Source: Vulcanimicrobiota bacterium
Lineage (GTDB): Bacteria; Vulcanimicrobiota; Vulcanimicrobiia; Vulcanimicrobiales; Vulcanimicrobiaceae
Assembly (NCBI GenBank): GCA_027459645.1
Contig: DAIDHQ010000012.1
Location: forward strand, 18,314 to 82,313
Direction: 5' to 3'
Length of the DNA: 64,000 bases
Positions 4,209-6,720 of this stretch are shown here, piece by piece (position 1 is the stretch's first letter; every line of letters starts with the position of its first letter). Position numbers and translations under genes: made by a program. The notes beneath the pieces were generated by a model that saw only the letters and a list, made by a program, of their open reading frames with translations, was not told the origin of the DNA and did no database searches.

Positions 4209-4703
4209 TTGAGCATTATGGAAACCGGCATGGAAACGAGCCAAACGCAGACGATCGAATTTCCGCGATTCGGTGCATGCACGTTCTCCGCGAGCGACGT
4301 GATCGAATTCCCGTGGGGCATCCCGGGTTTCCCGAACTTGCGCCGCTGGCTCGCCCTCACGCTCGAATCTCACGCAAGTTTCGTGTGGCTCCAGAGCATC
4401 GACGACCCGAAGGTCGCGCTGCCGACCACCGATCCGTACTACATCTTCGAAGACTACAACCCGAAGCTGCCGCCCTACGTGGTCGCGGCGCTCGAAATCG
4501 CCGATCCCTCGGATTTCACGATGCTTTGCGTCGTGGTGGTCACCGAAAACGCCGAAGAGATGACGATCAACCTGCTCGCCCCGATCGTGGTCAATCTGCG
4601 CAGCCGCAAGGCGCGCCAGATCATGCTTGAAAGCTCGGGTTACTCGACCCGCCACCCGATCCCCCGGAAGCAGGCCACCGCGGAAGGCCAGCCCGCAAGC
4701 TAG
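4209..4703 (+). CDS. fliW: Flagellar assembly factor FliW
   Basis: 164 aa; FPWGIPGFPNLRRWLAL and MTINLLAPIVVNLRSRKARQIML motifs; adjacent to csrA. Confidence 0.95.
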   Translation: MSIMETGMETSQTQTIEFPRFGACTFSASDVIEFPWGIPGFPNLRRWLALTLESHASFVWLQSIDDPKVALPTTDPYYIFEDYNPKLPPYVVAALEIADPSDFTMLCVVVVTENAEEMTINLLAPIVVNLRSRKARQIMLESSGYSTRHPIPRKQATAEGQPAS

Positions 4704-4740
4704 TTAGAAGCTCCCCGAGCATCGCCACGGAGGGCCTGAC

Positions 4741-5031
4741 ATGCTCGTTCTCAGCCGGAAGATCAACGAATCCATCATGATCGGGGATTCGATTCGCGTC
4801 GTCATCGTCGCGGTCGATCGCGATCAGGTCAAGCTGGGGATCGAAGCGCCCCGTGAGGTGCCCGTTCACCGCTCCGAGATTTACGAGGAGATCCAGCGCG
4901 CGAACCGCGCGGCCGCCCAGGCCGCCAGCGGCGCGCCCTCCGAGCCGGCTGCCACCCACGCGACCCTGGGTGCCTCCAAGGCCAAGCTCCAGCCTCGTAA
5001 AAAGTCGCCAAATCCACACCCCGGCCACTAA
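4741..5031 (+). CDS. csrA: Carbon storage regulator CsrA with C-terminal extension
   Basis: [52 protein letters not shown] is canonical CsrA; ~40 extra C-terminal residues. Confidence 0.97.
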
Positions 5032-5055
5032 AGTCTCGCTGCGGCGCTCCGATAC
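5029..5055 (+). promoter_or_regulatory. Sigma-28 (FliA/SigD)-type promoter for flagellin
   Basis: TAAA (5029-5032), 15-nt spacer, TCCGATAC (5048-5055), against TAAA-N15-GCCGATAA. Confidence 0.75.
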
Positions 5056-5062
5056 CATCGGT

Positions 5063-5090
5063 AGAGGGGACAGGATGCTCCCCTCCAGGA
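5063..5090 (+). promoter_or_regulatory. CsrA-binding hairpin in flagellin 5' leader
   Basis: Perfect 7-bp stem GAGGGGA (5064-5070)/TCCCCTC (5079-5085) with loop CAGGATGC exposing AGGATG; second AGGA at 5087-5090 and third GGA overlapping the SD (ggagg 5134-5138). Confidence 0.7.
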
Positions 5091-5143
5091 CATGTCTAGT
5101 AACGCGCGTTTGATCGATCTTCGCGCACATCATGGAGGAAAAA

Positions 5144-6433
5144 ATGGGTCAAGGTCTGAGCATTGCCAACAATCTGTTGGCAAACAACGTCCAGTTAAAC
5201 CTCAATCGCAATCAAGAGTCGCTTCAAAACGTCGTAACCCAACTGTCGTCCGGCCTGCGCATCAACACCGCAGCGGATGATCCCTCTGGGCTTGCGATCT
5301 CGACGAACCTGCAAACGCAGGTCGATGCGTTCAATCAAGCTTCTTCGAACGTTCAGAACGCCAACAATGCGGCGCAAGTCGCGCTCGGCGCGTTAACGAC
5401 GACGACCAACATTCTTCAGCGTATTCGCAATCTCGCTGTCGAAGCTGCGTCCGACATCAACAGCAACAACGACCGCACGAACCTTCAAACCGAAGTTTCG
5501 CAGCTGTTGCTCGAAGTCAATCGTATCGCGCAAAACACCAACTTCAACGGTCAGGCATTGCTCGACGGAAGCCACTCCGGCTTCCAGCCGCAGCAGGCCG
5601 CGTATGTGAACGTCACGGCGAACGCCGCGCTTGCCAGCAACGGCAACATCGCGACGGTCAACGGCGTGAACTATGGCTTCCTGGCCGCGTCGGTCAGCGC
5701 GAACGCGACCGGCAACTTCGCGACCACCATCGGCTCGGCAAGCGCCTACGCCGCCACCGCCGGTGGTACGTACGCGACGGTCGACGGCACGATCGAACTC
5801 CAGGTTATTAACACCGGCGTTTCGATCGCCGTTCAAGAAACGTTCATCAACTCGGCGACCGGTGCGATCTCGGTTGACTCGACGCTCTTCGCGGCCCAGT
5901 CGGTTTCGGCGGACTTCGAGAACGTCTCGATCACGATCGGCTCGTTCGCAACGGCCGACGTCGGTACGACGTCGTTCATCAAGATCAGCCAGAACGTCGC
6001 AGCCCTGACGAACCCGAACAACCCCGCATTCAACTTCCAATCGGGCGCCGACGAAGGCGACGTCATCCAGCTCGGCATTCAAGCAACGAACACGCAGACA
6101 CTTCGCATCTCGAACGTCAACGTGGCGGTCTCGTCCTCGAACAGCCCGTCGCTCGGCGCAGAAGATGCCATCGGTCAGATCGACCAAGCACTGCAAACGC
6201 TGCTCAACCAGCAGGCGCAAATCGGTGCCGTCGTGGTCCGGCTCAACATCGACAAGGACAACGACAACGTTGCAGCCACCAACTTGCAGGCGGCGGAATC
6301 CAACATCCGCGACCTCAACGTCGGCCAAGCAACGACCGAGTTCACGAAGCTGCAGATCCTGGTGCAAGTCGGCACCTCGGTCTTGGCACAATCGAACGCA
6401 AACGCGCAATCGGTACTGGGTCTGTTCCGATAA
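5144..6433 (+). CDS. fliC: Flagellin
   Basis: MGQGLSIANNLLANNVQLNLNRNQESLQNVVTQLSSGLRINTAADDPSGLAIS N-term and C-terminal D0/D1; the ORF track begins at 5132 but GGAGG (5134-5138) is the SD for ATG 5144. Confidence 0.96.
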   Translation: MGQGLSIANNLLANNVQLNLNRNQESLQNVVTQLSSGLRINTAADDPSGLAISTNLQTQVDAFNQASSNVQNANNAAQVALGALTTTTNILQRIRNLAVEAASDINSNNDRTNLQTEVSQLLLEVNRIAQNTNFNGQALLDGSHSGFQPQQAAYVNVTANAALASNGNIATVNGVNYGFLAASVSANATGNFATTIGSASAYAATAGGTYATVDGTIELQVINTGVSIAVQETFINSATGAISVDSTLFAAQSVSADFENVSITIGSFATADVGTTSFIKISQNVAALTNPNNPAFNFQSGADEGDVIQLGIQATNTQTLRISNVNVAVSSSNSPSLGAEDAIGQIDQALQTLLNQQAQIGAVVVRLNIDKDNDNVAATNLQAAESNIRDLNVGQATTEFTKLQILVQVGTSVLAQSNANAQSVLGLFR

Positions 6434-6452: not shown

Positions 6453-6490
6453 AAGAGGGGTGTCGCTTCGGCGACGCCCCTCTTTTCATT
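6453..6490 (+). terminator. Strong Rho-independent terminator of flagellin transcript
   Basis: 14-bp stem AAGAGGGGTGTCGC-TTCG-GCGACGCCCCTCTT (one G-U) followed by a T-rich tract TTTTCATT. Confidence 0.93.
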
Positions 6491-6508
6491 TTGCCTGATG
6501 TGCCGGCG

Positions 6509-6514
6509 TATAAT
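6509..6514 (+). promoter_or_regulatory. Candidate -10 element TATAAT upstream of structured element
   Basis: Perfect TATAAT at 6509-6514, just before the inverted-repeat element; no convincing -35 at 16-18 bp. Confidence 0.4.
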
Positions 6515-6515
6515 A

Positions 6516-6681
6516 GCGACGACCAGGCGCCACATAGCCACTCGTGCGCCGCTCCTCGCAATTCCATCCGTGGAATTGCTCCTGCTGCCTGCGGATTCGG
6601 CCGAAGGCCGAAACGCCACAGGTTCCGCGAAGCGGAACCCTGCAGAGCCGCACTAGCGCCTATGTGGCGCCTGCTCGTCGC
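6516..6681 (+). ncRNA. Candidate structured ncRNA or palindromic intergenic element (long closing stem plus three hairpins)
   Basis: Arms 6516-6548 and 6649-6681 pair over ~29 bp with 4 mismatches; inside are GCAATTCCA-TCCG-TGGAATTGC (6558-6579), TTCGGCC-GAA-GGCCGAA (6596-6612), GGTTCCGC-GAA-GCGGAACC (6621-6639). Confidence 0.6.
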
Positions 6682-6720
6682 CTCTAACGCAAAGGGCGCG
6701 CAAAACCGAAGAAAAGAACG

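Follow-up and report, generated by a model that had tools for sequence, protein, structure and literature searches.

REP/BIME repeats, which are associated with RAYT transposases, are palindromes located at the 3′ ends of genes that act as a folded single strand. Rickettsia palindromic elements (RPEs) are units of ~100–200 bp that are present in many copies, both in spacers and in frame in unrelated protein genes (PMC10969869). The Correia repeat enclosed elements of Neisseria are likewise small and non-autonomous; they carry inverted repeats and are capable of inversion in situ, and the BOX elements of pneumococci are modular palindromes with repeats inserted into one another (PMC10969869).

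Here, we analyzed the element that follows the flagellin gene in a 64,000-nt stretch of DNA (hereafter, the window; contig C12:18314-82313) from a 3.14 Mb genome of Candidatus Eremiobacterota (hereafter, G000), whose nearest named relatives are Candidatus Eremiobacterota MAGs. With a probability of about 0.68, this element is a chimeric copy of a new MITE- or RPE-like family (hereafter, family A) that acts as a folded single strand, and not a flagellin-specific regulator. Like RPEs, family A is palindromic, multi-copy, and found both in spacers and in frame inside unrelated genes; however, compared by features rather than by sequence, it differs in its host phylum, mostly intergenic location, copy-specific arms, one-strand fold, and core inversion. 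Its core inverts in place as in Correia elements, although these have defined terminal repeats, whereas family A has variable ends and a conserved center. A location behind genes and a folded single strand are shared with REP/BIME, but G000 lacks their Y1 transposase, and the A units are several times longer and have three stems. The fusion of two repeats in the window resembles the nested repeats of BOX, which belongs to another phylum and is likened here by modular structure, not by sequence. Similar to the CsrB/RsmZ sRNAs, family A has hairpin loops with GGA, including CAGGAUG (PMC7652899), but it comprises many dispersed copies with ~4 GGA each and no visible promoter or terminator, which flip and insert into genes. 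As is general for MITEs and palindromic mobile elements, family A is dispersed, non-coding, short, and in many copies, with insertion polymorphism between relatives. A non-exhaustive search of the Eremiobacterota repeat literature found no description of such an element, and family A is apparently an uncatalogued family of dispersed DNA elements. It joins traits that are rarely combined: a conserved center with copy-specific arms, core inversion between sister species, in-frame insertion in housekeeping-type genes, and folding of one strand.

In the window, fliW, csrA, and flagellin lie in a row (4209–6433), which is the arrangement of the FliW-CsrA-flagellin switch of Bacillus and Campylobacter; to our knowledge, this gene order has not previously been the focus of work in this phylum. 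The flagellin gene (5132–6433, plus strand) runs into the element and has its own intrinsic terminator (6453–6484, plus strand), which is separate from it. All of the bases and positions quoted in the original prediction were present, i.e., TATAAT (6509–6514), the outer arms (6516–6537 and 6660–6681), a hairpin with a TCCG loop (6558–6579), the hairpin TTCGGCC-GAA-GGCCGAA (6596–6612), and the hairpin GGTTCCGC-GAA-GCGGAACC (6621–6639). When folded as RNA, positions 6500–6690 reached −102.9 kcal/mol, whereas dinucleotide shuffles averaged −68.4 ± 3.9 and none of 200 was as good (z = −8.95), which bears out the strong multi-hairpin fold. The minus strand of 6505–6690 folds more stably (−118.1 vs. 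−102.9). Contrary to the view of the element as a single plus-strand unit, the evidence points to folding of the minus strand and to a composite in which two repeat families are joined. The TATAAT that had been pointed out in front of the element is in place, but a −35 partner is missing, and the surrounding sequence yielded no sigma-70-like promoter. In line with the prediction, neither a tRNA nor a known RNA family was recognized: ARAGORN found no tRNA, and the Rfam covariance models gave nothing in the window at gathering score. At E-values up to 1, an Rfam search of eight loci returned only tRNAs and one weak BjrC68 match (E = 0.11), which overlies a terminator beside an A copy. A known Rfam family was ruled out, as no curated model matches.

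Read on the minus strand of the window, family A has the order arm, GCTC, TGAACGAG, stem P3, GAGGAAGGCAGCAGGA, hairpin P2, GAGGAGC, GG, and arm′. The conserved core of ~88 nt comprises two hairpins and purine-rich junctions (minus strand), and stem P3 has an internal loop GGA/GAGA and an apical loop AGGAU. The arms around the core are long and imperfect (median 48 nt); their sequence is copy-specific and their complementarity is kept. Family A contributes the outer arms and the GCAATTCCA hairpin to the window copy, and the inner two hairpins are another repeat (hereafter, B). The outer arm at 6516–6552 (GCGACGACCAGGCGCCACATAGCCACTCGTGCGCCGC; the 3′ arm on the minus strand) pairs with that at 6645–6681 (the 5′ arm on the minus strand). 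The sequence of 6516–6552 is unique among the copies, and the complementarity is common to all of them. The A-family part (6541–6590, minus strand) consists of the junction, hairpin P2 (6558–6579), and the conserved CTCCTGCTGCC, and shows 88–97% identity to copies on contigs C28, C30, and C6 of the same genome. In place of stem P3, between GCGGCTCTG and GGCAGCAGGA, lies a B repeat (6591–6643, plus strand), with its hairpins at 6596–6612 and 6621–6639 linked by ACGCCACA. Because the inner hairpins belong to B and stand where A would have its third stem, the window copy is a chimera of A and B. Both parts match the covariance model of their own family (model R1 for A: 6533–6663, minus strand, C12:24846-24976, 48.3 bits, E = 1.6e-9; model R2 for B: 57.9 bits, E = 1.1e-10), and no further A/B fusion was found among the matches listed for R1 and R2. 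B constitutes a separate family: genome G030 has 80 matches, and seven other genomes including G000 have 1–13. Homologous two-hairpin repeats occur in G018, G030, G031, and G036.

A BLASTn search of the genome with 6505–6690, an analysis that had been proposed together with the prediction, found more copies of the left half (6541–6590), and an iterated profile search identified ~22 solid A copies in G000. Model R1, which was built from A copies, matched in 36 of 61 genomes; across the phylum there were 426 matches in 61 of 110 genomes (summed over rows), all within three families of one class. Outside the phylum, 22 genomes yielded one weak match (30.1 bits, E = 3.2e-4; locus L337) in the Sericytochromatia MAG G122. 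These copy numbers are probably underestimates. MAG assemblies probably break at A, because many copies stand at the very ends of contigs (e.g., loci L164 and L190). Phage, plasmid, and viral collections, searched with one copy or one pattern, gave no match, and carriage of A by phages, plasmids, or viruses was rejected. The numbers of dispersed copies in G000 and the phylum are those of a repeat element and not of a flagellar RNA, which is how the original prediction had proposed to tell the two apart.

The structure of family A is supported by covariation. In an alignment of 98 copies fitted to model R1, all but one of which came from other genomes, changes on both sides were seen in 24 of 25 pairs. 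There were 531 double-change cells (144 ± 11 in shuffled data), and the pairing signal was lost when the partner was slid by 1–3 columns. An independent MAFFT alignment of the 18 copies from G000 itself gave the same picture (19 of 25 pairs; score 0.487 vs. 0.145). Within a copy, the two outer arms can be aligned across a median of 45 columns (84%), and 111 of 120 copies score above the 95th percentile of arms paired between different copies. To analyze which strand folds, mispairs in these 120 copies were counted over the innermost 30 nt of each arm, read on the minus (model) strand. G-U far exceeded A-C (198 vs. 46), as did G-A compared to T-C (145 vs. 6) and G-G compared to C-C (26 vs. 2), whereas the cross-copy arm control was near 1:1 (2615:2793 and 2774:2194). 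The bias is gone beyond ~35 nt. The tRNA stems of the same genome, used as a positive control, had 86 G-U and no A-C. The 18 copies taken alone showed no bias (G-U 9, A-C 8), but these numbers are small and are superseded by the 120 copies. The bias occurs in 23 of 25 informative genomes, a sign count that is the safer figure because some G-A mispairs cluster at particular positions and the copies of any one genome are related to one another. Since it is on the minus strand of the window that the arm mispairs are chiefly of the G-U and G-A types, the fold of family A is maintained on this strand only, as either RNA or ssDNA.

Copies of family A have inserted into genes as well as spacers. Two copies in G000 lie in frame inside metH and the gene for an error-prone DNA polymerase (dnaE2). 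The corresponding genes of relatives, five for metH and seven for dnaE2 and among them the genome of the same genus, continue uninterrupted at these places. The in-gene copies translate as ALNEP..QD..GEEG. In two more genera, A is found inside reading frames (L157 of G034 and L165 of G038); in G038, the copy separates the two parts of the polymerase that gave matches, and the locus of G034 can be aligned to that of G038. The spacer between infB and rbfA contains A in eight genera, in either orientation and with unrelated arms (L112, L114, L127, L131, L132, L148, L194, and L198), and is either a hotspot for insertion or a place of recurrent replacement. At a homologous site in the sister species G038 and G039, the right arms are identical at 36 of 40 positions, and the cores match at 83 of 87 positions only after one of them is reverse complemented. 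The core of A has been inverted in place between homologous arms in this case, the one clean pair of orthologous sites.

The placement of intergenic copies is strongly biased, with genes called by a simple program based on codon usage. In 90 of 114 scorable intergenic copies (p = 4e-10), the gene next to the model 3′ end points toward A, and a median of 36 nt, mostly arm, separates the model end from the stop codon of that gene. Only five copies are in divergent spacers, although 32% of the spacers >120 nt in G000 are divergent, and in convergent gaps A is nearer to the model-3′-side gene in 32 of 38 cases. The window copy fits this placement, since flagellin runs into the element with its own terminator between them. 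This single orientation closely behind stop codons, with divergent spacers avoided, would agree with A working on the plus strand, within the mRNA of the adjoining upstream gene, as a 3′-end element (a Rho-dependent terminator, mRNA protection, or an RNase III site) with selection for pyrimidine-rich bulges, and T is slightly more common beyond the plus-strand 3′ end. However, read on the plus strand, the mispairs become A-C and C-U, contrary to what a stable RNA under selection would retain, flagellin in the window already has a terminator before the element, and the in-gene copies have the other orientation. We consider this explanation unlikely, if the foremost of the alternatives. Arms derived from captured terminator stems were rejected, because the types of mispair do not suit an RNA from the plus strand. 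The same position right behind stop codons, a folded strand complementary to the upstream gene, and a strand-specific fold retained while the arm sequence varies would also suit an integron attC-like site that is recombined as ssDNA and cut by a putative recombinase. This is clearly improbable given that the outer ends are not conserved, unlike attC core sites, and that the copies are single, located beside resident genes and inside genes, and do not form cassette arrays.

Two further explanations invoke an RNA from the folded strand or from the flagellin locus. The repeat motif of CsrB is CAGGA(U/A/C)G (PMC7652899), and the P3 loop of family A with its closing pair, CAGGAUG, is identical to this motif. 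GGA is present in most P3 loops and ~70% of P2 loops, several P2 loops are ANGGAN hexaloops, and each core has 4.35 GGA on average compared to 2.92 in shuffles. These features, together with mispairs that fit an RNA on the minus strand, would agree with a multi-copy CsrA-binding module in which GGA hairpin loops on the minus strand titrate or recruit CsrA. The co-occurrence of A and csrA across 61 genomes (32/11 vs. 4/14; Fisher p = 4e-4, uncorrected for phylogeny and motility) is in the same direction; within families, p-values were 0.06 (f1) and 0.03 (f3), and these are confounded by phylogeny and motility. On the other hand, about one quarter of the P2 loops are ACGAU without GGA, the entire P3 block is conserved and not GGA alone, and G010 (97% complete) carries A with no csrA detected. 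Moreover, the two sides of A show no promoter/terminator asymmetry, and FliW, the usual CsrA antagonist in the fliW-csrA-flagellin order, is encoded in the window. The CsrA-binding module is rather doubtful. More doubtful still is a mobile, structured RNA module that is shared across the class and lies opposite the coding strand of its neighboring gene; its CsrB-like CAGGAUG loops would form a dispersed network for CsrA binding, spread in the manner of a transposable element, and switchable through inversion of the core between the arms.

The stable regulatory RNA tied to flagellin expression that was suggested at first accounts for the exceptional fold directly behind the flagellin terminator, but it is hardly credible, because the element is not conserved at this locus in relatives, other copies lie beside unrelated genes, and no promoter was found. 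The flagellin-glycosyltransferase junctions of five other Eremiobacterota loci lack the element. The empty junction was read from these loci and not from G001, a same-genus genome in which orthology around the flagellin junction is only partial; a 7-mer likeness of the right arm end to the orthologous flanks was too weak to use. A flagellin-specific ncRNA was rejected on the basis of this distribution and the missing orthologues. A computational search for signs of a minus-strand transcript (promoter, terminator, U-tract) found none and the two sides were alike; accordingly, a minus-strand RNA equipped with its own promoter or terminator was rejected.

Compared to these alternatives, a dispersed palindromic repeat of the MITE/REP-like, non-autonomous type, which the original prediction had also named, agrees with the dispersed copies, the in-gene insertions missing in relatives, and the inversion. 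The REP label does not hold in the strict, RAYT-driven sense: G000 has no Y1 transposase domain (PF01797), nor do nearly all of the genomes in its family that carry A, and RAYT/REP mobilization was rejected on this ground. Retro-mobility by a resident reverse transcriptase was likewise rejected, as RVT_1 is absent from G000 and was found in only 5 of 61 genomes. We found no transposase or target-site duplication, and a non-systematic search showed no autonomous parent of A. The arms are inverted repeats but copy-specific, and exact copy boundaries are not resolvable in the divergent linkers. Family A is probably, and most parsimoniously, a non-autonomous, largely selfish, MITE-like element. 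A folded single strand, either ssDNA or RNA, would be the form in which it is maintained or is mobilized in trans. Its core would be inverted by recombination or template switching between the arms, and the same processes may help to keep the arms complementary. Selection on the folded strand would purge A-C and T-C mispairs and tolerate G-U and G-A. Insertions would persist where they are harmless, mainly just behind stop codons or as hydrophilic protein linkers. The strict orientation beside stop codons exceeds the need of a purely selfish element and hints at a function. Family A cautions against taking strong covariation within a repeat as proof of a host regulatory RNA, and its 426 copies provide material on how a palindrome without a recognized transposase moves, as well as a testable link to CsrA.

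Several arrangements of the repeats were also observed. A copies often form head-to-head pairs ~80–240 bp apart (L160, L173, L175, L177, L190, L196, and L202), and tandem pairs are present at L147 and L156. In G030 (e.g., L304, L312, and L319), B forms tandem units on contig C77 (551–711), and several B copies in other genomes stand just upstream of an ATG. In the dnaE2 linker of G001 (L287), a short unrelated palindrome (ATCCTGAGC...GCTCAGGAT) occupies the place where G000 has an A copy, and this palindrome recurs near an A copy on contig C28 of G000.
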